From: Candidatus Methanoperedens sp.
GTDB lineage: Archaea; Halobacteriota; Methanosarcinia; Methanosarcinales; Methanoperedenaceae
Reading direction: 5' to 3'
DNA: 49,219 nucleotides
Assembly (NCBI GenBank): GCA_026552955.1
Contig: JAPMTS010000024.1
Location: 1-49,219, forward strand
Position numbers and translations under genes: made by a program. Below, in pieces: positions 27,351-48,774 of the stretch. The notes under the pieces were generated by a model. The model searched no databases and was not told where the DNA came from. It saw nothing but the letters and a program-made list of their open reading frames with translations. The number at the start of each line of letters is the position of its first letter. Positions within the stretch are counted from its first letter, which is position 1.

Positions 27351-28523
27351 ATGAATATGATGAGAGACGTCGCAATCATCGGATGCGGTATAACGAAATT
27401 CGGGCACCTTGATGGAAAAGACCTGATGGACATTCTCGTGGAGGCCTCGCTCAATGCGATCGACGATGCCGGAGCCAGCGAATTTGACTTCGATTCGGTC
27501 TACGTTGGGAACATGCTTGCCGGGGAGCTTTCCCATCAGACTGCAATTGCAAGCGCCCTGGTGGATCGGATCAACCTGATTCCTGCATCTGCCGAACGAA
27601 TTGAGAATGGACCGGCGTCAGGGGGATCGGCGGTTAAGAATGGCTTTTTTGCGGTAGCTTCCGGAGCAAGCGATCTGGTGCTTGTCGCTGGTGGAGAGAA
27701 AATGACCGGGGTTAATACCGGCACAATCTCCGACCTCATGGCTACGCTGAACCACCCTACCGCAGAATATGTACACGGCGCTACAATGCCTGCGATGGCA
27801 GCACTATTTACCCGCCTTTACATGGAACGCTACAGCCTCACCGAACGCCACCTGGCGATGGTAGCTGTGAAAAATCATGCAAATGGTTTGAAGAATCCCT
27901 GCGCTCAACTGCATAAGCTATGCACTGTTGAAGATGCTCTGAGTTCAGCTATGGTTTCAGACCCTTTGAGGCTCTACTACTGCTGCCCGATCAGTGACGG
28001 GGCGGCAGCGGTAGTTTTGTGCCCTGCCAAGAAAGCAAAGGAGTTCACTCCAAAGCCTGTAAAAATCCTTGGTTTTGGACACGCAACAGACACCCATGCT
28101 TTCCAGGAGCGAGAAGATCCGATAGTCCTCAAATCTGTCAAGATCGCAGCACAGCAAGCGTTCAAGATGGCAAATATCAAGCCCGAAGATATCGATGTCG
28201 CCGAACTGCATGATGCATTTGAGATCCTGGAAATTGCAGAGAGTGAAGATATCGGATTTTTCAAAAAAGGCGAGGGACAATTGGCGGTTGAGAAAGGCGT
28301 CACAGCTATCGATGGCGAGCTTCCCATAAATCCTTCTGGTGGATTAAAAGCCAGGGGTCATCCTGTGGGAGCGACTGGAGTTGCGCAGATCGTGGAGCTT
28401 GTCTTGCAGCTGCGCGGCGAAGCCGGCGAGAGACAGGTCAGGGATGCACAGCGAGCACTGGCATGCAATTTTGGCGGTTTTGGTAACAATACGCTTGTTC
28501 ACATTCTGGAGCGAGGCAATTGA
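27351..28523 (+). CDS. Thiolase-family protein (SCPx/archaeal type) with altered nucleophile site
   Basis: The 390-residue protein has the thiolase fold: RDVAIIGCGITKFG at the N-terminus, GGLKARGHPVGATG near residue 330 (the catalytic His), and NFGGFGNN at the end. At the usual nucleophile position the archaeal pattern ACASGG reads GPASGG here (residues 87-92), so the Cys appears replaced by Pro at residue 88. If the alignment is right, it may not act as a normal acetoacetyl-CoA thiolase. It is coupled to a DUF35 zinc-ribbon protein one base downstream, as in archaeal thiolase/DUF35 complexes. It is encoded with methylmalonyl-CoA mutase, so an acyl-CoA route is likely. GC content is higher than in many neighbours. 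Confidence 0.88.
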   Translation: MNMMRDVAIIGCGITKFGHLDGKDLMDILVEASLNAIDDAGASEFDFDSVYVGNMLAGELSHQTAIASALVDRINLIPASAERIENGPASGGSAVKNGFFAVASGASDLVLVAGGEKMTGVNTGTISDLMATLNHPTAEYVHGATMPAMAALFTRLYMERYSLTERHLAMVAVKNHANGLKNPCAQLHKLCTVEDALSSAMVSDPLRLYYCCPISDGAAAVVLCPAKKAKEFTPKPVKILGFGHATDTHAFQEREDPIVLKSVKIAAQQAFKMANIKPEDIDVAELHDAFEILEIAESEDIGFFKKGEGQLAVEKGVTAIDGELPINPSGGLKARGHPVGATGVAQIVELVLQLRGEAGERQVRDAQRALACNFGGFGNNTLVHILERGN

Positions 28524-28524
28524 A

Positions 28525-28866
28525 ATGCAGGAAAAAATGATGGGATTCATGTGCAAGAAGTGCGGCAAGGTCATGTACCCAAAACACGAGCGTTGTTTGG
28601 GTTGTAAGAACACAGAATTTGATGAAGTCAGCCTTGGAGATGAATGCCATTTAATCACTTTTACGAAGCTCTATGCTCTGCCCAGAGGGATCGAAATGTC
28701 CCCTTTGACCCTGGGCATAGTGGAATTCAATAACAAAGTTCGAGCAATGGGGCAAATAATGGCCGATGACCCAGAGCCGGGCATGGACCTGCATCCGGTG
28801 TGGGCGAAGCTGCGCACAATCGATGAGAAAGAGGTATATGGATTCAAATTCGATTCTATAGTATAG
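28525..28866 (+). CDS. DUF35 zinc-ribbon/OB-fold protein, thiolase partner
   Basis: The 113-residue protein has an N-terminal zinc ribbon with [18 protein letters not shown] (residues 10-27) and an OB-fold that follows (about 45-110, with [15 protein letters not shown]). This is the DUF35 architecture, which in methanogens bridges acetoacetyl-CoA thiolase and HMG-CoA synthase and channels CoA intermediates. Here it would hold acyl-CoA for the upstream thiolase-like protein. The start ATG at 28525 is one base after the thiolase stop; an upstream in-frame extension inside the thiolase gene lacks similarity. The mutase large subunit begins 7 bases downstream. Confidence 0.88.
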
Positions 28867-28873
28867 GAGTGAT

Positions 28874-30580
28874 ATGATTTTATCAGAAGAAGAACTGAAA
28901 GAAATAGAAAAAAAAGCGAAGGAATGGGAGAGCACGACTCTCAAGAATGTGCTCGAGAAAGTTCCCGAGAGTAAACAGACGTTTACGACCATTTCAGGAA
29001 TTCCGATAAAAAGGATCTACACGCCAACAGATATAGCGAACATGGATTACGCAGAGGATCTTGGTTTCCCCGGGGAATTCCCGTACATCAGAAATATATA
29101 TCCTACTGGTTACCGGGGTAGAACGTGGACGATGCGACAGTATGCAGGTTTTGGTTCAGCTGAGGAAGCCAATGCACGATACAAATTTTTGCTCTCTCAG
29201 GGTCAGACCGGCCTCAGTGTTGCCTTCGATTTACCCACTCAACTCGGCTACGACTCAGACGATGCAAAAGCACTTGGCGAGGTTGGGAAAGTGGGCGTAT
29301 CAATAAACTCTCTTGAAGACATGGAAATCCTTTTCAATGGTATACCTCTTGACAGGGTCAGCACATCTATGACTGCAAACGCGCCCGCTGCGATTTTGTT
29401 GGCAATGTATATACTTATAGGGGAAAAGCAAAACGTATCTGTGGATAAACTCGCCGGAACAATCCAAAATGATATATTCAAAGAATATATAGCAAGGGGG
29501 AATTTCATATTTGCGCCGGAACCTTCGATATGCATAGCAGCAGACATACTGGAGTACTGCGCAAAATTCATGCCTAAATGGAATTCGATAAGCATAAGCG
29601 GATATCACATGAGAGAAGCAGGAGCGAATGCGATACAGGAACTCGCTTTTACGCTTGCAAGCGGAATGGCTTATGTCGAGGCAGCGCTCAAAAGGAGACT
29701 CAACATTGATGATTTCGCTCCCCGTCTTTCATTCTTTTTCAACTCACACAATGACTTCTTCGAAGAAATTGCAAAATTTCGCGCAGCACGCAGAATTTGG
29801 GCGCGGATAATGAAAGAAAAATATGGAGCAAAAAATCCTGCTTCATGGATGCTCCGTTTCCATACACAGACTTCAGGATATTCTCTGACTGCCCAGCAGC
29901 CAGAGAACAACATCGTTCGCACAACAATTCAAGCCCTGGCAGCAGTCCTTGGAGGAACTCAATCGCTTCATACAAATTCGATGGATGAAGCATATGCGCT
30001 GCCTACTGAGAACGCTGTGCGCATTTCACTTCGCACGCAGCAGATACTGGCATACGAGAGTGGAGTGATCAATACTATCGACCCTCTTGCTGGTTCATAT
30101 TTCATTGAGGCACTCACCAACGAACTGGAAGAGAGAGCTATGAAATACATAGGGACTATTGAGTCTTTTGGAAGCGGAGAATGGAAAATGCTTTCTGGCA
30201 TGATAAAAGGTATAGAGACCGGGTTCTTCCAGAGAGAGATTGCGGACGCATCATACCTGTACCAGAAGGAAGTGGAAAGGAACGAGAGAGTCGTTGTAGG
30301 GGTGAATCAATTCACTGTAGATGAAAAAAGGCCTATAGAGACGCTAAAGATAGATGAGAAGGTGCAAGAAAAGCAGATCGAGAGACTGAAGCAGTTGCGC
30401 TTGAAAAGGGACACGAAAAAGGTTGAAGAGACGCTGGATGATCTTAAGAAAGCTGCACAGAGGGAAGGAAATCTGATGTATCCGATACTTGAGTGCGTTA
30501 AGTGTTATGCCACCGTTAGAGAGATATGCAATGTTCTTCGTTCAATATATGGAGAATACAGAGAAAAAGCAATATTTTGA
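28874..30580 (+). CDS. mcmA1: Methylmalonyl-CoA mutase large (catalytic) subunit
   Basis: This 568-residue protein is the catalytic chain without its B12 domain, as in two-gene archaeal mutases. Active-site residues match the Propionibacterium enzyme: Tyr90 (TMRQYAGF), Gln198 and Arg208 ([15 protein letters not shown]), and His245 ([12 protein letters not shown]). Tyr and Arg at these places fit methylmalonyl-CoA rather than isobutyryl-CoA. The enzyme interconverts succinyl-CoA and R-methylmalonyl-CoA with adenosylcobalamin. The AGGAGTG ribosome site precedes the ATG. It is followed after one base by the B12-binding subunit. The epimerase is not in the window. Direction of flux cannot be told. 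Confidence 0.95.
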
Positions 30581-30581
30581 G

Positions 30582-30986
30582 ATGAATAACATGGGGGAGA
30601 AAAACATAAGGATCTTGATGGCAAAACCAGGTTTGGACGGCCATGACAGGGGAATAAAAGTCGTCTCAAGAGCCCTCAGGGACGCTGGAATGGAGGTTAT
30701 ATATATGGGTCTTCACCAGACGCCGGAGCAGATAGTTGAAGCGGCGATACAGGAGGATGTTGATGCTCTTGGTCTATCCATCCTCTCAGGTGCGCACATC
30801 ATCCTTTTCCCGAAGATAATGGAATTGTTGAAAGAGAACAGGGTTGATATAATTGTTTTCGCAGGGGGTATAATACCAGATGAGGATGTGCCTGCTTTGA
30901 AGAATATTAACATTGCAGAAATTTTTGGCCCTGGTACTAACACCGAGGATATCGTCAAATTTGTCAAGGAAAAAGTAGCGAAATAG
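30582..30986 (+). CDS. mcmA2: Methylmalonyl-CoA mutase small (cobalamin-binding) subunit
   Basis: The protein is 134 residues from the ATG at 30582; an ATG nine bases later is an alternative. It is the B12-binding domain alone. The base-off motif DGHDRG (DxHxxG) near residue 21-26 holds the His that coordinates cobalt. SILSGAH near residue 65 and AGGIIPDED near residue 95 complete the binding pocket. It pairs with the large subunit encoded one base upstream to form the active mutase. MeaB starts 7 bases downstream. The frame also stays open upstream inside the mcmA1 gene but without similarity. Confidence 0.95.
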
Positions 30987-30993
30987 AAATAAC

Positions 30994-31959
30994 ATGGCTG
31001 AACCAGACATTGAAGTCCTAACAACTCAACTATTGAAAGGGGACAGGCGGGCGGCAGCGAAATTAATAACCATAGTCGAGAACGATCCAGATGCTGTAAA
31101 AAGAGTGATAAGCAGGATATACAAGAACACCGGGAAGGCTCAGATCGTGGGCATAACAGGTCCTCCCGGGTCTGGTAAGAGCACCCTTATAAACCAGCTT
31201 GCTTCATATCTTCGACAGAAGGGAAGAACTGTTGGGATTATAGCAGTGGATGCCTCGTCTCCTTTTGGCGGTGGCGCCTTCCTGGGAGACAGGATACGGA
31301 TGAAGGATATTACAACTGATAAGGGGATTTTCATACGAAGTATGGCAACCAGGGGATGCAAAGGCGGAATTGCACGGGCAACGGGTGATGCGATAAAAAT
31401 TCTTGACGCTCTCGGATATGACATAATACTTGTTGAGACCGCTGGTGCAGGTGAGGCCGAGGTAGATATAATGAACGCCTCTCATACGACAATAGTTATT
31501 ACAGTTCCCGGTCTCGGGGACGATATACAGGCTAACAAGGCTGGAATGATGGAGATCGCTGATCTATTTGTGGTCAACAAGGCAGATAGAGAAGGTGCAG
31601 ATATTGTAGTCTATGAGATTGAGTCAATGTTTCGTTTCACTGACAAACGAGGATGGAAACCACCTGTTTTGAAAACAGCAGTAATAGAGGCAATTGGAAT
31701 AAGTGAACTTGCCGAAAGGATAGACGAACACTTCAATTATCTGAAAGAGAACGACCTTATTGGAGAAAGGCTCAAAAGAAGAGTGGAGATGGAAATAGCA
31801 AACATAGCAAAAGAAGTGATGGTGAGAGAGTTGGAGGAAATAAGGAAGAGCGAGGCATATAAGAAACTCATCGAGGAAATCATTGAGAAAAAAACAGACC
31901 CGCACTCTGCAGCAGATGAAATTATGATGATGGTGAAGGCCAGATATATCGAGAAATGA
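30994..31959 (+). CDS. meaB: MeaB/ArgK-type GTPase chaperone of methylmalonyl-CoA mutase
   Basis: The 321-residue G3E GTPase has the P-loop GPPGSGKSTLINQL near residue 55, the Mg-site DASSPFGGGAFLGDRIRM, ETAGAGEAEVD (Walker B region) and NKADREGAD as the base-recognition loop. It guards the mutase: it gates delivery of adenosylcobalamin and removes the damaged cofactor. It is the last gene of the operon, 7 bases after mcmA2. The archaeal members have long been annotated ArgK or LAO/AO kinase, a name now considered wrong for this group. All motifs look intact. Confidence 0.95.
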   Translation: MAEPDIEVLTTQLLKGDRRAAAKLITIVENDPDAVKRVISRIYKNTGKAQIVGITGPPGSGKSTLINQLASYLRQKGRTVGIIAVDASSPFGGGAFLGDRIRMKDITTDKGIFIRSMATRGCKGGIARATGDAIKILDALGYDIILVETAGAGEAEVDIMNASHTTIVITVPGLGDDIQANKAGMMEIADLFVVNKADREGADIVVYEIESMFRFTDKRGWKPPVLKTAVIEAIGISELAERIDEHFNYLKENDLIGERLKRRVEMEIANIAKEVMVRELEEIRKSEAYKKLIEEIIEKKTDPHSAADEIMMMVKARYIEK

Positions 31960-37093: not shown

Positions 37094-38974
37094 ATGATTT
37101 CACTAAAAAGGACAAGCAAATACATATTTATAATATATTTTGGAATTCTGGTGATGTCTGTCGGACATGTAAGTGGGGAGATAGAAGCGATGGCATCAGA
37201 AATTCATGCTGTGGATCCAGGAAATGACTGCATAAACTGTCATAAGGACGATTTTGACCCAATAGAAACGGAAAGTTCAATACCGAATACAGTAGGAACA
37301 GTATCAAAAGTTATTGGGTCGAATAATATTTTGCAGGGAGAAGGTGGGGAAGATTGCGTTTTATGTCATGACATGGGGGGATCAGGCGCAACCAAACACA
37401 TTGATGCTTCAGCAATAAAGCAGGGCGTCCATGGAAATCTGAATAACGGCGCTGCGAATTCAACTGTCCTTTCAGATCTGGTAGATAAAGCATGCTGGGC
37501 ATGTCATGGTGATGGTACAGAACCCACAGGTCAGCATCACACAAACTATGCAACACCCTATTCATGTGAAGATTGCCATAACAGGACCGACAACCTGTCA
37601 TTCACAAATTCCACTATAATTTACAATATCACAACAAGGAAAGTATCCGAGCACATCCAGCCGCCATTTTTTGATCAAATAAATTCAACGGTCAATGATT
37701 CAAATGCAAACTGTGAGGGATGTCATGATAAAAGTAAAGTTCTTTATTCGGATTCCGGGTTTTCCCGCGCGGCTAATATCTCTCATTATGCATCCAGAAC
37801 CGACCTTGTTAAACCCAGCATTAATTGCAGTTTGTGCCATAAGAATTCACAAAATGCAACTGCATATTGGGCTAATACGATACGGCATCCAGCAAGATCA
37901 CAAGAGGATTCTTTCTGTGACAATTGCCATAATACAAGCAATGCTTCTGACCTTCATAGCAAGGAAATTGTGAAGCCAAATAATATTCACTATGGATTCG
38001 ACTGGCAGAATGATGATCATAACGACATCAATCCGATCGGAACAAATGAAGCGTGTATGTCATGCCATGGTACTCATTATACAGTATATAGACTGTGTGA
38101 AGACTGTCATATTGAGAATAGGAGCGGTCCTGTAGCAGGTTATTATACCCGGTCCGATATCAACGATACATTACCTCGTGTATATGCTCATACAAATTTC
38201 TCCAGTACAGTGAATGTACCAAACCAGTCTACAGTTTACTCTCCATCACAATCAGCAAAAACATTTTCTTCATGTTATGCATTCAACAATGTTACACTTG
38301 AAGGAACATGTCACGGGAATTCTTATAAGAACCTTTCTGCAGGCGGCGGCTTTTATGCATTCAAACGGATATCCAATGATGTCAGGAGTACACCATATCA
38401 CTTCACCCAGACCATCGATAGACTGCCGGACACGACAAACTGCGTGTTCTGTCACATCCAGACCGATGCGGTGATAAGAAAAGCGTGGGGGAATGCGACC
38501 CAGATAACTTCCGGAAAACACAGCTGGTATACAGGAAGCAATAATAGCAACTGCTGGAGCTGCCATGTTAACACAGGCACTGCACCAATGGATTTCCACT
38601 CTGACAGTGTAACAGCAGGAGGGGGTAGTGACTGCATCTCATGCCACTCTCCCAATGATGTTAATACTACCAGATTCGCCCGTCATGCCAACTTAAACAC
38701 AAGTGATGGCGGTCCGGATAATGTTACGAATAGCGACTGCTGGACATGTCATTATCAGAAAGACATGGATAGAAATCATGTTTACCTGTGTGATAGCTGT
38801 CATGAGAACAGCAGTGGAATAGTCTATGTAACAGATCCTGCACTTATAAAGACTGATTTCATGCATGGAATGACATCCTGTAAAACCTGTCATGCTCCAA
38901 ATGGATATCATGGAAAGGGTACAGTGGGTCCTCTGGGAGTCGTAGAAAATATATTAAAAAAAATACAGCAATGA
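37094..38974 (+). CDS. Secreted multiheme cytochrome c, 15 CxxCH plus one CX11CH candidate
   Basis: The 626-residue protein has a signal peptide (about 1-28) and no other membrane helix. Canonical CxxCH motifs begin at residues 46, 88, 134, 158, 207, 245, 275, 321, 335, 450, 487, 514, 549, 566 and 596. A further C394-x11-CH (C406, H407) lies between the ninth and tenth and may be an unusual heme site. The last ~115 residues, with DCWTCHYQKDMDRN and GTVGPLG near the end, are the module shared by all five cytochromes here. It has fewer non-heme domains than the others and is the most heme-dense, consistent with an electron conduit outside the cell. Partner proteins are not known. Confidence 0.93.
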   Translation: MISLKRTSKYIFIIYFGILVMSVGHVSGEIEAMASEIHAVDPGNDCINCHKDDFDPIETESSIPNTVGTVSKVIGSNNILQGEGGEDCVLCHDMGGSGATKHIDASAIKQGVHGNLNNGAANSTVLSDLVDKACWACHGDGTEPTGQHHTNYATPYSCEDCHNRTDNLSFTNSTIIYNITTRKVSEHIQPPFFDQINSTVNDSNANCEGCHDKSKVLYSDSGFSRAANISHYASRTDLVKPSINCSLCHKNSQNATAYWANTIRHPARSQEDSFCDNCHNTSNASDLHSKEIVKPNNIHYGFDWQNDDHNDINPIGTNEACMSCHGTHYTVYRLCEDCHIENRSGPVAGYYTRSDINDTLPRVYAHTNFSSTVNVPNQSTVYSPSQSAKTFSSCYAFNNVTLEGTCHGNSYKNLSAGGGFYAFKRISNDVRSTPYHFTQTIDRLPDTTNCVFCHIQTDAVIRKAWGNATQITSGKHSWYTGSNNSNCWSCHVNTGTAPMDFHSDSVTAGGGSDCISCHSPNDVNTTRFARHANLNTSDGGPDNVTNSDCWTCHYQKDMDRNHVYLCDSCHENSSGIVYVTDPALIKTDFMHGMTSCKTCHAPNGYHGKGTVGPLGVVENILKKIQQ

Positions 38975-39024
38975 TTAATAATTTAAAGATAAAATATTTG
39001 AATGTCAGGAAATGGGGATAGTAT

Positions 39025-41259
39025 ATGAATGATAAAAAAATAGTAGACAATATTATTTTGTATAGCTATAAAGATATAAAATGTTTAAAAACTATTGTAT
39101 TTAAATATATATTATTTTTATTAATAATTTCTATGTCCATATTCCCTTCTCTGGCTGTTTCACCACATGAAAATCAAGATGGGATTCCGGAAAATAAAAC
39201 CTGTATTGATTGTCATACTCCTCATCAAACGGATGGTACCCCTTCAAAATCATTAAATGTAACCATAGCAAATACTCCTCCTGTTTCTGAGCCTATCATC
39301 ATCCAATCTTTTGCGGCATCAAATGTTGCAGGGAATATCACACTTATATCCAGTATGGGACAGAACTGGTATCAACAGGGGATATTTGGGCCAAATACAG
39401 GTAATGACAAAAGCTGGGGATGGACATTTTTCGATGAAAATCCGCCAAGCGGATTTATGACTCCCAATGAAAGTGTAACTCAGAGAGAAAATATATATGC
39501 TCTCCTGCTTGATGATGGAAACAATAGCAATCCGATAAGTGGGGCAATTGTTGTAGCAAATGTTACATATTGGACATATGATAATGTAAGCTATTCGAAT
39601 CATACCATTCCTGTCCAGCTTGCAGAAGATACCAATCGAAAAGGATTCTACAGGGGAATATTTGACTTCTATGGAGGTACAAGCTATGCAGGCCCTGGCA
39701 TGAGATCATGTGATGGTTGTCATTCTTCAATTTATGGTAAAAACGATAATCAAATAGGATATTTCCCTGGAAATTACTCAGTTTCAATTCGAGCAGAAGC
39801 TGATGGAAAAATAAAATATTCAAATTTGAATTTCGAAGTAACTCCATGGGGATGCGAAGATTGTCATGGGAGTGGAAATCAGCATAGGGCATCGGCAGAT
39901 ATGGATTCAGCCTGCTATATTTGTCATGGAATAAATAATATTTCTGGTATGTCCGATGCAGGAAATCCTCATCAGAACAGTGCACATCAATCTATTGAAT
40001 GCACACAATGCCACACAAATAAAATCCTTTCCTCCCAGACATTCACTAACGTTACGTTCGTCCCGGGGGGTATCAACAACAATAGATCCGTGCCAATATA
40101 CAACAACATAGCAACTCAATTAAATAGTGGAAAACATACAACTCTCACATGCAATACTTGTCACAATAATTTGACATTGCCTGATCCTCAGGGAGGCTAT
40201 GGTAGCTATAATGTTAGTGGTATCGTTAATAATTATTATCCGAGTTTTGCAAGTTTAGAGCAATTTGAGGACTATTACGTCATAAATGTGGAATCGTCGG
40301 ATCAGCTTAATATCAGTCTTGACTGGAACAGTACAGCTAATCTTGGATTTTATCTGTACCCTCCTGATTTTAATCCAAAAAATGGAATCAGGCCGCCATA
40401 TTATGGCGGTGCGACTCCCACAACTAAACCGGAGATCTACGTTATTGGTGCACCTATGGCAGGCAAATGGATACTTGAAGTATATGGCTATGATTTGCGA
40501 TATGATTTCCCTGGCTGGAATAGCTGGGGGGGCGTTCTTCAGCCACCGATAAATTATACGGTAAATTCTACCCATCCAATTCAAAGAAAAGATCTTCCCT
40601 CTACACCGGAATGCAATAATTGTCATAATTCTGGAGCTACCGATGGGGCAAATACAATATATGAGATCCCGGATTGGAACCCTGGCTTTGCCCATGTTGA
40701 TACCAATGGAGATGGTACTCTTGACATTCAGTGCAGGATGTGTCATGATGCGATGCATAATATCGGAATTAAAACCTGTCAAAATTGCCATACAACTGCA
40801 CCCACAGATCACCCTATACATGACCCTGCTTTCTCTGGATATTCATCAACTCAGTGCCTTGCCTGTCATGGAGATCCGCACAGGGTAATACTTACAGGAG
40901 GGACTGACTGCGTTGGATGTCATGTACCAGGAGATGTTAATGCCTCTAAATTCGCCCGGCATGCTGACTTAAACACAACTGATGGTGGACCTAATAATGT
41001 CACAAATAGCGATTGCTGGACATGTCATTATCAAAAAGATATGGATCGAAGCAATGTTTACCTGTGCGAAAGCTGTCATAATAACAGTACCGGTATCGTT
41101 ATTGTAACCGACCCTGCACTTATTAAAAGTGATTTTATGCATGATAGTACCGTCTGCAGAACATGTCATGCCCCAACAGGCTCTGGCTATCACCTCAATG
41201 GCACAGTGGGTCCACTTGGAACTGTCGAGAAAATATTAAGAAAGATCCAGAATCCTTAA
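39025..41259 (+). CDS. Secreted multiheme cytochrome c, 14 CxxCH, with internal beta domains
   Basis: The 744-residue protein has a signal segment (about 22-44). CxxCH motifs start at residues 60, 229, 277, 297, 326, 376, 530, 570, 585, 611, 629, 664, 681 and 711. One beta-rich domain (about 95-225, with SSMGQNWYQQGIFGP) separates the first heme from the rest. A second, PPC-like domain (about 405-515, with SFASLEQFEDYYVINV and GKWILEVYGYD) separates hemes six and seven. The C-terminal eight hemes form the shared module. It follows the first cytochrome by 50 bases and may be cotranscribed. A hairpin plus T-run after the stop likely ends the message. It is probably extracellular. Confidence 0.94.
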   Translation: MNDKKIVDNIILYSYKDIKCLKTIVFKYILFLLIISMSIFPSLAVSPHENQDGIPENKTCIDCHTPHQTDGTPSKSLNVTIANTPPVSEPIIIQSFAASNVAGNITLISSMGQNWYQQGIFGPNTGNDKSWGWTFFDENPPSGFMTPNESVTQRENIYALLLDDGNNSNPISGAIVVANVTYWTYDNVSYSNHTIPVQLAEDTNRKGFYRGIFDFYGGTSYAGPGMRSCDGCHSSIYGKNDNQIGYFPGNYSVSIRAEADGKIKYSNLNFEVTPWGCEDCHGSGNQHRASADMDSACYICHGINNISGMSDAGNPHQNSAHQSIECTQCHTNKILSSQTFTNVTFVPGGINNNRSVPIYNNIATQLNSGKHTTLTCNTCHNNLTLPDPQGGYGSYNVSGIVNNYYPSFASLEQFEDYYVINVESSDQLNISLDWNSTANLGFYLYPPDFNPKNGIRPPYYGGATPTTKPEIYVIGAPMAGKWILEVYGYDLRYDFPGWNSWGGVLQPPINYTVNSTHPIQRKDLPSTPECNNCHNSGATDGANTIYEIPDWNPGFAHVDTNGDGTLDIQCRMCHDAMHNIGIKTCQNCHTTAPTDHPIHDPAFSGYSSTQCLACHGDPHRVILTGGTDCVGCHVPGDVNASKFARHADLNTTDGGPNNVTNSDCWTCHYQKDMDRSNVYLCESCHNNSTGIVIVTDPALIKSDFMHDSTVCRTCHAPTGSGYHLNGTVGPLGTVEKILRKIQNP

Positions 41260-41268
41260 CTGAATAAG

Positions 41269-41310
41269 AAAAAAGAATAATGTTAGATAATTATTCTTTT
41301 TTATTTTTTT
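41269..41310 (+). terminator. Hairpin with T-run after the second cytochrome
   Basis: AAAAAAGAATAAT (41269-41281) pairs perfectly with ATTATTCTTTTTT (41290-41302) over 13 bp, followed by a further T-run to 41310. It begins 10 bases after the stop of the cytochrome at 39025-41259 and could end its transcript. The 170 bases to the next gene could hold a separate promoter. Confidence 0.6.
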
Positions 41311-41479
41311 AATAATATGTATAAAAAATGATCATATAAACTCTTATTACATTAAATTTAAATAGAATGCAATTCAATATTTAAATGGATAGATTTGGAT
41401 AGAAACTGGTTGTATATTTACAATCAAGATAGGACATGAAAATCATACGGTATCCAAAATAACATATAGGAGATAGGAT

Positions 41480-43648
41480 ATGTTGGATATTCAGAAATAT
41501 AAATTTAAGAACATGAAATATATTTTCTTACAATGTATTTTGTTGTTGACTTTTTGCCTGATCGCGGTCGGAACGTCATCCGCGGATTCAATTACCGATA
41601 TACATGAAAATCTAGATGAAAATCTGGGTGACTCCGAATGTATGCGATGCCACACTTCACATGATGTGTCAGGAACACAGACTCTCCCTGTCAACACCTT
41701 AAAGGATTTCCAAACATCACAGAGCTTCCAGTCTCTTGGAACAACTCAGGTTATTGGTGACATTACCCTTATACCGAGTATGGGACAAAACTGGTACCAG
41801 CAAGGGATCAACGGGCTTGGACCGAAAACATGGGGATGGACCTTCTTTGATGAAATAGTTGATAATGGTGGATATTCAACGGGAAAAATCATACCTCCGG
41901 AACAGATTACTCAGAGGAATAATATATCTGCTCTTTTGCTTGATAGCGGAAACAACAGCGCCCCCATTCAGGGGGCCCAGGTAAGCGCGAATGTAACCTA
42001 CTGGGAATACGATGGAGCAACTTATACCAGCAATACAGTCGGGGTTCAACTCAATGAGGATATGAATCACAGTGGTTTTTATAGCGGGAACTTCTATTTC
42101 AAGGGCGGCCCGACAAAAAATAATTATGGTTGCAGTTATTGCCACCTGATGCATGGTCAAAATACACCACAAGTGGGTTATTTCCCCGGGAACTATTCTG
42201 CGATTATCACCGCCCAGGCAGATAGCAAAATTACAACACAGGAAATAAGTTTTCAAGTAACTCCATGGGGATGTGAAGACTGCCATGGAAGTCCAAATTA
42301 TCATATATCTCGATCAGCAGCGTCTGGTGAAGCATGTTATATATGTCATAGCTTGAACGGTATAGGACATGCTTTTGCAGAAAATCCACATCAGAACATT
42401 GCCCATCGGTCTATTGACTGCACAAAATGCCATACAAATAAAACCCTTTCCTCCCAGACATTCACTAACGTTACGTTCGTCCCGGGGGGTATCAACAACA
42501 ATAGATCAGTGCCAATATACAACAACATAACAACTCAATTAAATGGCGGGGCCCATTCAAATCTCACCTGTACATATTGTCATAACGACCTGAAACTCCC
42601 GATTCAGCAAGGAAGCTATAAAGAGGACAATTACACCATCAATAACACGGCAAACAACTATACTCCAAGCTTTGCCAGCATACAGCAATTCCAGGATAAT
42701 TATGTAATAAATGTGACATCTGGTGGACCTTTAAATCTAAGTCTTAACTGGACAGGAACATCAAATATTGGATTCTATTTATTTCCACCTGGTTTCATCC
42801 CGAATACATCTAATAACCCCTACTCTAATGGTTCAACTTCAAATCAACCAGAAATCTATCGTAACAGCGATCCGATTCAAGGTGATTGGATACTTGTGGT
42901 ATATGGCTATGATTTTAATTCTGGATTAAAAATTGGAACGTTACAGTCAGCATTGGACTATACATTAAATTCAACATATCCTATCCAAGAAAAGAAACTT
43001 CCACGAATACCTGAGTGTAACAGTTGCCATAATTCCAATGGCGCAGGTAATGCGTTAACGACAGATGATATACCCGACTGGAATCCGGGCTTTGCCCATG
43101 TGGATACCAACAATGATGGCAATCCTGACATACAATGCAGGATGTGCCATGATGCGATGCATGAAATAACGGTCAAAGACTGCCATAATTGCCATACCAT
43201 AGCTCCGCTCAATCACCCGATCCAGGAACCAGTATTTGCTAATTATTCGCCCGCCCAGTGTCTCAATTGTCATGGGGACCCTCACCAGGTTACATCCGCA
43301 GGAGGCACCGATTGCGTCGCATGTCATTCTCCAGGGGATGTTAATATTTCTTTGTTTGGCCGTCATGCAGATATTAATACCAGCGACGGTGCCGGGAATG
43401 TGACGAATGATGATTGCTGGACCTGTCACTACCAGAAAGATATGGACCGAAGCAATGTTTACCTGTGCGAAAGCTGCCATATAAACAGCACCGGTATAGT
43501 AAATGTAACAAACATTTCACTTATCAAGAGTGATTTTATGCATGGTATGACCACATGCAAAACGTGTCATGCTTCAACTTCCTACCATCAACAGGGTACA
43601 GTGGGTCCCCTGGGGGCAGTAGAGAAGGTATTAAGAAAAATATCCTGA
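41480..43648 (+). CDS. Secreted multiheme cytochrome c, 14 CxxCH
   Basis: The 722-residue protein is a paralogue of the cytochrome at 39025-41259: the same order of 14 heme motifs, the same N-terminal beta domain (SMGQNWYQQG) and the same PPC-like domain (SFASIQQFQDNYVINV and GDWILVVYGYD), with similar spacing. The signal peptide ends near residue 35. The last eight hemes (CNSCH, CRMCH, CHNCH, CLNCH, CVACH, CWTCH, CESCH, CKTCH) are the shared module. A 100-base block at 42445-42544 matches 40026-40125 at 98 positions. An AGGAG ribosome site lies shortly before the ATG at 41480; an internal ATG at 41513 is an alternative start of the signal peptide. Confidence 0.94.
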   Translation: MLDIQKYKFKNMKYIFLQCILLLTFCLIAVGTSSADSITDIHENLDENLGDSECMRCHTSHDVSGTQTLPVNTLKDFQTSQSFQSLGTTQVIGDITLIPSMGQNWYQQGINGLGPKTWGWTFFDEIVDNGGYSTGKIIPPEQITQRNNISALLLDSGNNSAPIQGAQVSANVTYWEYDGATYTSNTVGVQLNEDMNHSGFYSGNFYFKGGPTKNNYGCSYCHLMHGQNTPQVGYFPGNYSAIITAQADSKITTQEISFQVTPWGCEDCHGSPNYHISRSAASGEACYICHSLNGIGHAFAENPHQNIAHRSIDCTKCHTNKTLSSQTFTNVTFVPGGINNNRSVPIYNNITTQLNGGAHSNLTCTYCHNDLKLPIQQGSYKEDNYTINNTANNYTPSFASIQQFQDNYVINVTSGGPLNLSLNWTGTSNIGFYLFPPGFIPNTSNNPYSNGSTSNQPEIYRNSDPIQGDWILVVYGYDFNSGLKIGTLQSALDYTLNSTYPIQEKKLPRIPECNSCHNSNGAGNALTTDDIPDWNPGFAHVDTNNDGNPDIQCRMCHDAMHEITVKDCHNCHTIAPLNHPIQEPVFANYSPAQCLNCHGDPHQVTSAGGTDCVACHSPGDVNISLFGRHADINTSDGAGNVTNDDCWTCHYQKDMDRSNVYLCESCHINSTGIVNVTNISLIKSDFMHGMTTCKTCHASTSYHQQGTVGPLGAVEKVLRKIS

Positions 43649-43777
43649 GCTTACGCAAGTTTTATTGCCACAAAAATCAAACGTGAATCAAGGCAATCAT
43701 TATGATTAGGAAAATCATCGGGATAGGAAGAATAAATCAAGATAGTTATACTGATCCAGCTGAGGAAGGGGTATTCG

Positions 43778-45955
43778 ATGGGAAATATAAATATATCACA
43801 TACTTATGGGAATTTTCATAGATTTTTGATAGTTTCGATAGTGGTTTTTCTATTTTCCATTCCTCCCTCGTATGCGATTATGCATGAAAATAGTACAGGG
43901 AAAATCTCTGATCCGAAATGCAGTGGTTGTCATTTGATAACTCAACCGGAATATTCACAACAAGGATATTCACAAATAGAATATTCTCAACAAGAATATA
44001 TATCAAAGAATTTCATTCCTTTTTTTAATTCAATGGATGTTTCTGATTATACTGCGATCCTTTCAATTGGGCAAACACCGTATCAGCTGGGTCCATTCTT
44101 CAAGGGGGGAGGAAACGGCTGGTCATGGTGGGATGCGGATAATTTCGGAAATGAAAAACAGAAAAATGTCATAGCTATTATGATCCTGAATAAAACCACA
44201 GGGAAACCGGTTACAGGGCTCACCTCAACGCTCATTGCCAATGTCTCTTATCCCTCTCTGACGCTTATAAATCCAACAGATCCGCTTACATCAGCAACAA
44301 CATTACAATATACAACTCATATGCAACAGGTAAATTTACAGGAAAATATTAATCATCCAGGGACATACTTTGGTTATTTCACGTATGATCCGTTCACAGA
44401 ACAGTACTCAGGTAATTATTCTGTGAGGTTTGATACTTTTATTAACGGCTCTTTGGTTACAGCCAGCACACAGTTCCAGACCACAATCCTGGGATGCCAG
44501 GGCTGCCATAACAAGAAATTAAGCGGTGTTGAAACAAGCTTCGCTCATGGGGACGCAGGCGGTATGAAATCCTGTATGTTCGTATGTCACGGCGGTTCGC
44601 GCGGCTTCTATGGAGGTTCACCTCCTTTTATGGGCCCTCAATTAACAGCGAATCCAATGCATGTACATGAAATGCAATATGGGCATAGTGGTGGTTTCCT
44701 TGCGGGAATGTATTATCTGCAGCCTCCGTATAATGTGCAATCCCATGTAAGCACAGCCACATGCGTACAATGCCACACATCGTTCCTTCATGATAATACC
44801 GGAACCGATACAACCAGTATCGGAAGCTATACTCTTTATGGTACGAACATAGATTTTTCCTCTGGTACGCATGAAACCCTTTCCTGTGAGTATTGTCACG
44901 GTTCATTGGCCTATCCAGAAATACCCCTTGACCAATATCAATTACAGGGAAGCCTTGGAAATTATTCACCGAGCTTCACGTCTCATGAATCCTTTACAGA
45001 CACCTATATAATAAATGTGAGCGGACAAGATAACCTGACAATAACGGTAAATGGGGATAATATTTCACAAATAATTGAACTATACGCTATTGGCCCTGTG
45101 GATAATACAACAACAGCATTACAGGGGCCATGCGGCGGTAATCCATGTGATATTTCCCGTACATCACCGATCAATATGGAAATTGCATATCCATACCATG
45201 GTACATGGATAGTAAAGTTGACCGGGCGGCAGGAAGGCCAGATTAATTATTCAATATCCAGCAATTATCCAATAGAAAGAAAACCTATAATCAAGATACC
45301 CGAATGCAATAGCTGCCATAAACTAAATGGGGATGGTAACGCTTCAACCACTGATCAGATCCCTGATTGGAACCCGGGTTTTGCACATGCCGATACCAAC
45401 GATGATGGAACCCTTGATGTCCAGTGCAGGATGTGCCATGATGCAATGCATAGTATAACGATCAAAGACTGTCGCAACTGTCATACCATAGCCCCGACAA
45501 ATCACCCGATCAAGGAACCGGTATTTACTGAATATATACCTTCACAGTGTCTCAATTGTCATGGGGATCCGCATAAAGTCACATCTGCTGGAGGCACGGA
45601 TTGCATCGCATGTCATTCTCATGAAGTCAATATTTCCTTATTTGGCCGTCATGCAAATATCAATACCAGTGACGGTGATGGAAATGTCACGAATTACGAT
45701 TGCTGGACATGTCATTACCAGAAAGATATGTCACGAAGTAATGTTTACCTGTGTGAAAGCTGCCATATAAACAGCACGGGTGTAGTAAATGTAACAGACA
45801 CTTCACTTATTAAAAGTGATTTTATGCATGGCATGAGCGCATGCAAAACATGTCATGCCCCGGCTACCCCCAATAACGCTGCAGCCTATCACCAAAATGG
45901 CACTGTTGGTCCTCTTGGGGTCGTGGAAATAATAGTTATGAAGAAATCCGGATAG
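43778..45955 (+). CDS. Secreted multiheme cytochrome c, 12 CxxCH plus one CX3CH
   Basis: The 725-residue protein has a signal peptide (about 12-33). Twelve CxxCH motifs and one C266-x3-CH (CMFVCH, conserved as CMFICH in the next cytochrome) are present. A short run of YSQQ-type repeats (about 58-74) is found only here. A beta domain (about 85-235, with SIGQTPYQLGPFFKGGGNGW) follows the first heme, and a PPC-like domain (about 400-495) precedes the eight-heme C-terminal module. An added CGGNPC pair in that domain may form a disulfide. It shares long near-identical DNA with the next cytochrome, mainly in the second half. It is probably extracellular. Confidence 0.94.
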   Translation: MGNINISHTYGNFHRFLIVSIVVFLFSIPPSYAIMHENSTGKISDPKCSGCHLITQPEYSQQGYSQIEYSQQEYISKNFIPFFNSMDVSDYTAILSIGQTPYQLGPFFKGGGNGWSWWDADNFGNEKQKNVIAIMILNKTTGKPVTGLTSTLIANVSYPSLTLINPTDPLTSATTLQYTTHMQQVNLQENINHPGTYFGYFTYDPFTEQYSGNYSVRFDTFINGSLVTASTQFQTTILGCQGCHNKKLSGVETSFAHGDAGGMKSCMFVCHGGSRGFYGGSPPFMGPQLTANPMHVHEMQYGHSGGFLAGMYYLQPPYNVQSHVSTATCVQCHTSFLHDNTGTDTTSIGSYTLYGTNIDFSSGTHETLSCEYCHGSLAYPEIPLDQYQLQGSLGNYSPSFTSHESFTDTYIINVSGQDNLTITVNGDNISQIIELYAIGPVDNTTTALQGPCGGNPCDISRTSPINMEIAYPYHGTWIVKLTGRQEGQINYSISSNYPIERKPIIKIPECNSCHKLNGDGNASTTDQIPDWNPGFAHADTNDDGTLDVQCRMCHDAMHSITIKDCRNCHTIAPTNHPIKEPVFTEYIPSQCLNCHGDPHKVTSAGGTDCIACHSHEVNISLFGRHANINTSDGDGNVTNYDCWTCHYQKDMSRSNVYLCESCHINSTGVVNVTDTSLIKSDFMHGMSACKTCHAPATPNNAAAYHQNGTVGPLGVVEIIVMKKSG

Positions 45956-45966
45956 AAATTTCTATC
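45951..45966. terminator. Perfect 16-bp palindrome over the stop codon of the fourth cytochrome
   Basis: GATAGAAATTTCTATC spans the TAG stop at 45953-45955 and is followed by ATTTTC. Eight base pairs are formed without a loop, so a hairpin would need opening of the centre. It may instead be a protein-binding site or a weak terminator. No matching palindrome was seen after the other cytochromes. Confidence 0.35.
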
Positions 45967-46113
45967 ATTTTCAAAAAAGATTTTCTGGAAAAAGCTCCAC
46001 AAGATTTATTACCCTATAAATTAAACTCAAAATGAGCCTACAAAAGGATAATTGAATAGGAATAGGGATGAGTTTCCTTGATAGGTAAAAGTCAGGATAG
46101 GATGTGATTATTG

Positions 46114-48774
46114 ATGATAAACGGGATAGTGTTCTTTAACCATGATTATAAGAATAGGACGAATGGAATTTTAATTATATGTAGTTTCATATTGATTTAC
46201 TTATTGGGCATTAATGCTGCATCTGCAGTATCTGTCCAATATGTGCATACGAATGTAACAGGGAATATAACAGATCCGGAATGTAGTGGATGTCACTTTC
46301 CTTCTCAACCGCCTGAACAGAAATTTTTTCCACCCGTAAATGAGCCGATTTTTAATTCAATGGCAGATTCTAATTATACAGCTATCCTTTCAATCGGACA
46401 AACACCTTATCAGCTCGGTCCATTCTTCAGGGGCGGAGGAAATGGCTGGTCATGGTGGGATTCAAATGACTTTGGAACAGAAAAACAAAAAAACCTCATA
46501 AATCTCATGATCCTGGATAAAACCACAGGAAAACCTGTTCCCGAGCTGACCTCATATCCTTCCTGGCCGCAGGCAAGCTTCAGGAAATATGGTGGATCCT
46601 ACAGTTACAAGGCCGACACTGAGCCATCTCCTATAACCACCCAAACCAATTATCCCGATAAGACTGAAATATGGATGATAAAGGAAGTGGATCTTACATT
46701 ATATTCAAATGCAAACCTGACGTTTATGACATGGTATGCAATGGAAACGGATTGGGATTACGGTTACGTGGCAGTTTCAATGGATGGGAATATCTGGGAC
46801 AATCTTCCCGGAACTCATACAACAACTACGAATCCGAACGGCAACAACCTTGGAAATGGGATAACCGGTAGCAGTGGTGGATGGATACAGGAAACTATGG
46901 ACCTGGCGCCTTTTGCAGGAAACAAGATACTCCTTGGCTTCAGGTTTACATCCGATGATTATACAAATGAAGAAGGCTGGTATGTCGATGACATCAATGT
47001 TGTTTCAGGAACGAACATATTTAGTGATGATGCTGAAACTCCGGCAAGAACGCTCAGTGTCAATGTTTCTTATCCGCATCTAACGCTCTTAAATCCAACA
47101 GATCCGCTTACAACCGCAACAACCCTGCAATATACAACTCATATACAGCAGGTAAATTTACAGGAAGACATTAATCATCCGGGAACATACCTTGGTTATT
47201 TTAAGTTCGATCCGTTTGCAGAACAGTACTCAGGTAACTATTCTGTGACACTTAGTACTATTATTAACGGCTCCCAGGTTACTGCTAATACACACTTCCA
47301 GACCACAGTCCTGGGGTGCCAGAGCTGCCACAATAAGAGACAGGGTGGTGTTGAAACAAGCTTGGCTCATGGGGACGGGGGCGGCATGGAATCCTGTATG
47401 TTCATATGTCACGGTGGTTCACGCGGCTTTTATGGTGGCTCACCTCCATTTATGGGCCCTCAATTAACAGCAAATCCGATGCATGTCCATGAAATGCAAT
47501 ATGGGCATAGTGGTGGTTTCCTCCAGGGAATGTATTATCCACAGCCATCGTATAATGTGCAATCCCATGTAAGCGCAGCCACATGCGTACAATGCCACAC
47601 ATCGTTCCTTCATGATAATGCCGGAACCGATACAACCAGTATCGGAAGCTATACTCTTTATGGTACGAACATAGATTTTTCCTCTGGTACACATGAAACC
47701 CTTTCCTGTGAGTATTGTCACGGTTCATTGGCCTATCCGGAAATACCACCTGACCAATATCAATTACAGGGAAGCCTTGGAAATTATTCACCGAGCTTCA
47801 CGTCTCATGAATCCTTTACAGACACCTATATAATAAATGTGAACGGACCGGATAACCTGACAATAACGGTAACTGGGGATAATACCGAACAAATAGTTGA
47901 ATTATACGCTATTGGCCCGGTGGATAATACCACCACAGCACTACAGGGGCCATGTGGAGGTAATCCATGTGATATCGCCCAGAGCTTTGCGTCACCAATT
48001 AATATGGAAATTCCGTATCCGTACATTGGTACATGGATAGTAAAGGTGACCGAATGGCAGGAAGGCAAGATAAATTATACAATAACCAGCAATTATCCAT
48101 TGGAAAGAAAACCGATAATCAAGATACCCGAATGCAATAGCTGCCATAAACTAAATGGGGATGGTAACGCTTCAACCACTGATCAGATCCCTGATTGGAA
48201 CCCGGGTTTTGCGCATGCCGATACCAACGATGATGGAACCCTTGATGTCCAGTGCAGGATGTGCCATGATGCAATGCACAATATCGTTGTCAAGGATTGC
48301 CATGATTGCCATACCGCAGCCCCTGTCAACCATCCTATTGAAGAGCCAATATTTTCTCAATATAATACTACCCAGTGTCTTGATTGCCATGGGGATCCGC
48401 ATAAGATAACTGGTGGCACCAATTGTATCGCATGCCATTCTCCCGGGGATGTCAATATTTCCAATTTTGGGCGTCATGCCAATATCAGTACGATGGATGG
48501 TACTGGAGTTGTTTCAAACAATGACTGCTGGACCTGTCACTACGAAAAGGATATGAACCGAAGCAATGTTCACATGTGCGAAAGCTGTCATAATAACAGT
48601 GGTATAGTACCTGTAGATCCTTCACTTATCATAAGTAATTTAATGCATGGTAGTACTACCGAATGCAGAACGTGTCATGCCCCGGCAAAGCCGCCTCATG
48701 TCCCAGCCTATCACCTCAATGGCACTGTTGGTCCTCTGGGATTAGTAGAGAGCATATTTAGGAAAGTAATTTAG
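46114..48774 (+). CDS. Secreted multiheme cytochrome c, 12 CxxCH plus one CX3CH, with inserted jellyroll-like domain
   Basis: The protein is 886 residues from the ATG at 46114 (a TTG just before it at 46111 is possible). It is the closest paralogue of the cytochrome at 43778-45955, with the same heme order, but it has an extra ~165-residue segment after the first beta domain (about residues 149-312). That segment has SWPQASFRKYGGSYSYK, DWDYGYVAVSMDG and EEGWYVDDINV, typical of the immune-inhibitor-A/choice-of-anchor-J beta-sandwich type. The C-terminal module has the usual eight hemes. CMFICH (residues ~428-433) is the CX3CH site. A hairpin follows the stop, probably the end of the cytochrome run. 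It is the largest of the five. Confidence 0.94.
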   Translation: MINGIVFFNHDYKNRTNGILIICSFILIYLLGINAASAVSVQYVHTNVTGNITDPECSGCHFPSQPPEQKFFPPVNEPIFNSMADSNYTAILSIGQTPYQLGPFFRGGGNGWSWWDSNDFGTEKQKNLINLMILDKTTGKPVPELTSYPSWPQASFRKYGGSYSYKADTEPSPITTQTNYPDKTEIWMIKEVDLTLYSNANLTFMTWYAMETDWDYGYVAVSMDGNIWDNLPGTHTTTTNPNGNNLGNGITGSSGGWIQETMDLAPFAGNKILLGFRFTSDDYTNEEGWYVDDINVVSGTNIFSDDAETPARTLSVNVSYPHLTLLNPTDPLTTATTLQYTTHIQQVNLQEDINHPGTYLGYFKFDPFAEQYSGNYSVTLSTIINGSQVTANTHFQTTVLGCQSCHNKRQGGVETSLAHGDGGGMESCMFICHGGSRGFYGGSPPFMGPQLTANPMHVHEMQYGHSGGFLQGMYYPQPSYNVQSHVSAATCVQCHTSFLHDNAGTDTTSIGSYTLYGTNIDFSSGTHETLSCEYCHGSLAYPEIPPDQYQLQGSLGNYSPSFTSHESFTDTYIINVNGPDNLTITVTGDNTEQIVELYAIGPVDNTTTALQGPCGGNPCDIAQSFASPINMEIPYPYIGTWIVKVTEWQEGKINYTITSNYPLERKPIIKIPECNSCHKLNGDGNASTTDQIPDWNPGFAHADTNDDGTLDVQCRMCHDAMHNIVVKDCHDCHTAAPVNHPIEEPIFSQYNTTQCLDCHGDPHKITGGTNCIACHSPGDVNISNFGRHANISTMDGTGVVSNNDCWTCHYEKDMNRSNVHMCESCHNNSGIVPVDPSLIISNLMHGSTTECRTCHAPAKPPHVPAYHLNGTVGPLGLVESIFRKVI

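Follow-up and report, generated by a model that had tools for sequence, protein, structure and literature searches.

How electrons from methane are passed from the S-layer of ANME archaea to minerals, electrodes and partners is an open question, and the five large cytochrome genes which lie in a row at the end of a Candidatus Methanoperedens sp. contig raise it in a particular form: what would a series of secreted heme proteins which begin differently and end alike be docking to, if to anything? The window we analysed is the whole 49,219 nt stretch of contig JAPMTS010000024.1 (GenBank assembly GCA_026552955.1), and its genome is 95% complete. An ORF check agreed with an earlier note, made from the DNA alone, in placing five consecutive plus-strand reading frames (626–887 aa), referred to here as genes A–E, exactly where the note had put them (Table 1), and counting confirmed 15, 14, 14, 12 and 12 CxxCH motifs in A–E, or 67 in all, with residue shuffles of the same five proteins giving means of 0.03–0.11 and a maximum of two. 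The three atypical heme candidates proposed at the same time are the CX11CH of gene A and the CX3CH of D and E, all of them conserved in relatives (the CX3CH in eight of the eight homologues checked). Of the cysteines outside these motifs, D and E have a CxxxxC pair, and a few others lie in the N-terminal leader. Gene E has a TTG start in the ORF list, with ATG as the next codon.

Table 1. Positions in the window of the five cytochrome genes and of features within and between them.
Feature	Position	Strand	Remarks
Gene A	37094..38974	+	Secreted 626-aa cytochrome, 15 CxxCH plus one CX11CH
Atypical CX11CH, gene A (C394-H407)	38273..38314	+	Four A orthologues keep it, as CX9CH or CX11CH
Shared-module part, gene A (final four hemes, GTVGPLG end)	38597..38971	+	
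Gene B	39025..41259	+	744 aa, 14 CxxCH, BC-type body
PPC-like beta domain, gene B	40267..40488	+	Scores below Pfam cut-off
Eight-heme C-terminal module, gene B	40588..41256	+	
B–C gap	41260..41479	.	220 nt; T-runs and TATA-like sites, a sequence reading only
Gene C	41480..43648	+	722 aa, 14 CxxCH, BC-type body
Eight-heme C-terminal module, gene C	42989..43645	+	
Gene D	43778..45955	+	725 aa, 12 CxxCH plus CX3CH, DE-type body
Atypical CX3CH, gene D (CMFVCH, residue 266)	44573..44590	+	
Eight-heme C-terminal module, gene D	45281..45952	+	
Gene E	46111..48774	+	887 aa, 12 CxxCH and CX3CH, DE-type body that includes a MAM domain
InhA-like MAM domain, gene E	46675..47046	+	PF20773, E 3.2e-29
Atypical CX3CH, gene E (CMFICH, residue 429)	47395..47412	+	Aligned with the MHC-B CX3CH
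Eight-heme C-terminal module, gene E	48109..48771	+	

The expectation that all five proteins are secreted was upheld, with a single N-terminal hydrophobic stretch in each and none later, and no hydrophobic window above threshold past residue 60 which might form a C-terminal transmembrane helix in any of A–E. All five carry an excess of N-glycosylation sequons (19–26 per protein vs 9–12 in shuffles), as expected for exported archaeal proteins. A single operon for the five genes is unproven, as the T-runs and TATA-like sites of the B–C gap mark a possible boundary between two transcripts. The array is followed (window:48840-49219) by the start of a short ORF which by eye is pyridoxamine-phosphate-oxidase-like and is apparently interrupted near the contig end, and elsewhere in the window (27351-31959) thiolase, methylmalonyl-CoA mutase and MeaB genes are clustered.

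It had been suggested that the five proteins share an identical C-terminal end. A common end does exist, in that B–E share an eight-heme module of which gene A has the last four hemes, but the ends are similar rather than identical: the module is 65–78% identical among B–E and gene A shows 49–58% identity with it, while A and B or C share 23–25% identity ahead of the last four hemes and 70–75% inside them. GTVGPLG ends all five array proteins. We rejected the idea that this motif is a sorting or docking tag in its own right, because residues continue past a GTAGPxG version of it in the related genomes LFW-280_3_2 and MnB_21, and we therefore regard it as the end of the heme domain. Across 11 sequences the eight hemes of the module are conserved, and seven histidines outside the motifs are invariant; the ligand still needed might come from a conserved KDM close to heme six, the Met of which is invariant. 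A scan of IMG/VR with the module found no relative. We note a 202-aa ORF in METP1, another related genome (L067:7403-8011, G030:C38), with a signal-like start, seven CxxCH motifs and a GTVGPLG end, which by its sequence is a putative small separate cytochrome made of the module's end.

The earlier note knew of no named cytochrome which the module matched, and this claim fell, as each of the eight hemes has its counterpart in one part of the extracellular head of ANME MHC-B, a described class of S-layer cytochrome from other ANME families and a proposed S-layer conduit (Chadwick et al. 2022, PMC9012536). Searched across the class, the module gave a second circle of matches; these lie in further families of the order, and proteins of ~2150 aa account for many of them. 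The two large comparators we read have 35 CxxCH motifs, an S-layer domain, an InhA-like MAM domain and a C-terminal transmembrane segment, and a cytochrome c assembly gene adjoins the one checked for this; we identified them as MHC-B because these features are those given in PMC9012536. Gene E is the closest of the array to the MHC-B head, with residues 27–849 aligned at 36% identity to a 2153-aa, 35-heme protein (E 2e-77). In a comparison of individual hemes, E and MHC-B correspond at the CX3CH, at the two hemes which follow it and throughout the eight-heme module, and the first two hemes of E have no MHC-B counterpart.

Homology to the heme-rich ectodomain was found for B–E, and the likeness of the array to MHC-B extends over about 820 residues in which the CX3CH and the eight module hemes correspond. 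MHC-B is described as having a heme-free N-terminal region like peptidase M6; of the array, E shares the InhA-type (M6-type) MAM domain (PF20773, 3e-29), which was absent from B, C and D in Pfam searches. In contrast to MHC-B, where seven further hemes come between the module and the S-layer domain and another 17 between that domain and the anchor, B–E end with the module, and none of A–E matched the S-layer domain PF07752 in Pfam, which was present in both comparators. The array proteins also differ in having no second transmembrane segment and in occurring as several tandem copies, and no cytochrome-assembly gene was seen adjoining the array (in a check for a CcmF2 neighbour, the upstream genes were homoserine dehydrogenase-like and Trm5-like, and the contig ends 445 nt after gene E). 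Judged by these alignments, B–E are free-standing MHC-B-like heads, with neither the S-layer domain nor the membrane anchor.

The N-terminal part of gene A resembles a different region of MHC-B, the stretch directly membrane-side of the S-layer domain. As for the half of MHC-B which carries this domain and the anchor, it was found at 53% identity in giant proteins of three other genomes with the cassette, FeB_1, LFW-280_3_2 and MnB_21 (L169, L170 and L171 at G005:C42, G028:C87 and G007:C86, respectively; these giant cytochromes have frames of 3349–5442 aa and other N-terminal parts), and had no match at E ≤ 1e-20 in the window's genome, where a 22-heme MHC/S-layer protein is encoded on contig C37. 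In two genomes of another family of the order (G047 and G050) we observed D/E- and B/C-type cytochromes (L139, L140 and L141) with 54–61% identity to those of the cassette, and as these are far closer to the cassette than MHC-B is, they suggest transfer between families.

Pfam returned general heme families for A–E, a sub-threshold PPC domain in B, the MAM domain in E and, only in A, the MtrC/MtrF domain II/IV (PF22113, 90.3 bits vs a gathering cut-off of 30), and gene A is accordingly best described, from its sequence, as a putative MtrC/MtrF-like heme chain fused to the terminal part of the shared module. OmcA/MtrC (TIGR03507) gave 13–17 bits for B and C, against a cut-off of 209, and no match for the others. 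Apart from the above-cut-off likeness of gene A, the array differs from the MtrC/MtrF/OmcA outer-membrane cytochromes in architecture and in its host, which is an archaeon with S-layer proteins. The pectin-lyase-like N-terminal domain of ANME MHC-C was not found in A–E by Pfam.

Among named genomes, the closest loci are in the Candidatus Methanoperedens/Methanoperedenaceae MAGs FeB_1, METP1, MnB_21 and LFW-280_3_2. We refer to B, C and their relatives as BC and to D, E and their relatives as DE, with these groups set by body type and not by the tree of the ends. The FeB_1 cassette also has five genes, preceded as in the window by a homoserine dehydrogenase-like and a Trm5-like gene, and includes the A, BC, D and E types, but differs in its third gene which has a 13-heme body lacking the BC beta domains in place of a BC body. 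In METP1 the A type is found on contig 75 and the BC and E types on contig 30. Two related proteins are encoded elsewhere in the window's own genome: a 1087-aa, 19-heme relative of D (L017:5257-8520, contig C9) with a heme-rich stretch like the FeB_1 third gene lying inside the module, and, away from the cassette, an 896-aa E-like paralogue (L016:6405-9095, contig C5) which has a MAM domain and whose end has diverged to GTAGPKG.

Trees of the bodies split BC and DE with 100/100 support, and for the ends (about 112 aa) a tree which keeps any one body type together was rejected (AU p of 2.5e-6 for A, 1.4e-9 for BC and 7e-131 for DE). Ends on different body types agreed at 56% of fourfold sites within genomes vs 43% between genomes (p = 0.0016 when genome labels were permuted within body type; it should be noted that a pooled Fisher p of 7e-10 for these sites is unusable as it treats non-independent pairs as independent), and because agreement is higher within genomes, protein constraint alone is insufficient as an explanation. 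METP1 and LFW-280_3_2 show this synonymous homogenisation of the ends strongly, FeB_1 to a moderate degree and the window's genome weakly (48% within genomes, 46% between them). Gene C's end is most like the one carried by the third FeB_1 cassette gene (78% of fourfold sites), and the two bodies differ; at the third cassette position, the end appears to have stayed in both genomes with a different body attached. The earlier proposal of a common end with variable bodies gains from this, in that the ends evolve in part independently of the bodies, which fits a shared partner. We suggest that recombination has paired bodies with ends in new combinations, such that several heads can share one end; our literature search for gene conversion among multiheme cytochromes returned nothing of relevance.

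A conserved and recombining heme domain could stay similar without any docking partner, and the alternative which survives best is that A–E are plain tandem paralogues having an easily recombining heme domain as their common end, with no docking, and working as separate soluble or matrix-bound carriers in extracellular electron transfer. This would suit the tandem layout, the exact DNA matches between paralogues which also occur outside the module (63 nt in the B and C bodies, and 98 nt between D and E), the weak homogenisation in the window's genome and the existence of the end as a small seven-heme protein. It is harder to reconcile with METP1, where the ends are shared by body types on different contigs, and with the third-gene end which is kept here and in FeB_1 while the body differs, and we think this explanation rather unlikely, if the most serious of those opposed to ours.

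A role in extracellular electron transfer, as the earlier note supposed, is likely, given that the window's genome has no match to NarG or OmcZ and that a gene A orthologue lies beside OmcZ in METP1. The NarG search of this genome (no match at E ≤ 1e-5) used one family model which a more divergent nitrate reductase could escape, and the METP1 NarG match was above the curated cut-off; the OmcZ query finding no match here picked up OmcZ-like genes elsewhere in the genus, in eight of 31 genomes. In METP1, a relative from an electrode culture, the gene order is OmcZ, an S8 protease, a 36-heme protein and then the gene A orthologue, which is full-length with 15 hemes and a GTVGPLG end. On anodes, one cluster with OmcZ, OzpA and MHCs of 37 and 15 hemes was up by > 3.5 log2 units (PMC10874420); of the five array genes these data bear on A alone, through its orthologue in another strain. 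We take the METP1 locus to be the same kind of cluster from the order of its genes and the numbers of their hemes (36 where the paper has 37), and note that the window contains none of OmcZ, the protease and the 36-heme protein. Several OmcZ-like genes are found in a row in FeB_1 (G005:C21:13645-23023). The highly expressed MHCs reported for metal-reducing strains (PMC9058156, PMC7082337) could not be tied to the cassette.

Cytochrome filaments occur in archaea (PMC12954529), and as the array encodes secreted multiheme chains in a genome with no OmcZ match, which could need another wire, the module might instead be a polymer interface by which at least one of the five proteins forms filaments like OmcS, OmcE, OmcZ or the archaeal ones. 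Seven invariant non-motif histidines for eight hemes would permit a ligand in trans, but we rejected this deficit as proof of a polymer, since a histidine-swapping homopolymer still has one distal histidine per heme, and it is no polymer signature. PDB sequence and profile searches found no similarity to the solved filament cytochromes and nothing informative (no OmcZ was among the PDB matches of gene C or of profiles A1–A3; the METP1 OmcZ matches 8D9M at 3e-60), and the bulky beta domains and MAM domain of the array are unlike the compact subunits of known filaments, making filament formation improbable. AlphaFold2 gave mean pLDDT values of 40 for gene C (13 sequences) and 28 for gene A (5 sequences), with the heme parts near 25 and meaningless. 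Only a jelly-roll part of the gene C model was usable, in the same region as the PPC-like domain of gene B, and the Foldseek matches of this model at E ≤ 0.001 were two Thermococcus subtilase chains and one phage tail fibre. Finally, that the proteins are carriers which remain between the membrane and the S-layer and feed the conduit from below is very improbable, for while the N-terminal part of gene A is like the membrane-side stretch of MHC-B and none of the five has an anchor, B–E match the region on the outer side of the S-layer domain, are large and have many sequons.

The reading we favour, with somewhat more confidence than doubt, is that B–E are MHC-B heads made as separate proteins and probably glycosylated, with the module as the conduit-side end seated on an S-layer cytochrome and the bodies turned toward the acceptor. 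MHC-B runs from the head through a heme stalk, the S-layer domain and an inner heme stretch to the membrane anchor, and the chains of B–E stop just past the eighth heme of the module. We read the module as the conduit-side end by analogy, as the module of MHC-B sits where the head meets the stalk to the S-layer. Similarly, B–E most likely act outside the S-layer, a placement made because the homologous region of MHC-B is N-terminal of the S-layer domain and is outside in the published model. Here we infer the direction of electron flow, the docking, the identity of the partner and the acceptor: electrons would pass from the membrane via another cytochrome across the S-layer to the module, and then along the chain into the variable N-terminal bodies, which would meet a mineral, an electrode, other cells or other cytochromes. 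The best candidate in this genome for the S-layer conduit, and this is a guess, may be the 22-heme protein on contig C37, and the gene A product may link conduit and heads or serve as an extra head.

More tentatively, one module might be kept compatible by recombination within each genome so that exchangeable heads can be mounted on a single S-layer conduit, a possibility we would not put higher than doubtful; were it true, the range of acceptors would shift by swapping bodies with the plug unchanged. Our literature search, which was not exhaustive, found no description of free-standing tandem heads with a reshuffled common end. What the array presents is the outer head of a known candidate conduit in the form of separate proteins whose end is constant, and the genome has no NarG or OmcZ match. 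These are defined soluble pieces which could be expressed and tested for binding to S-layer cytochromes, and the combination of a constant end and separate heads suggests an evolutionary route by which the range of acceptors could change.
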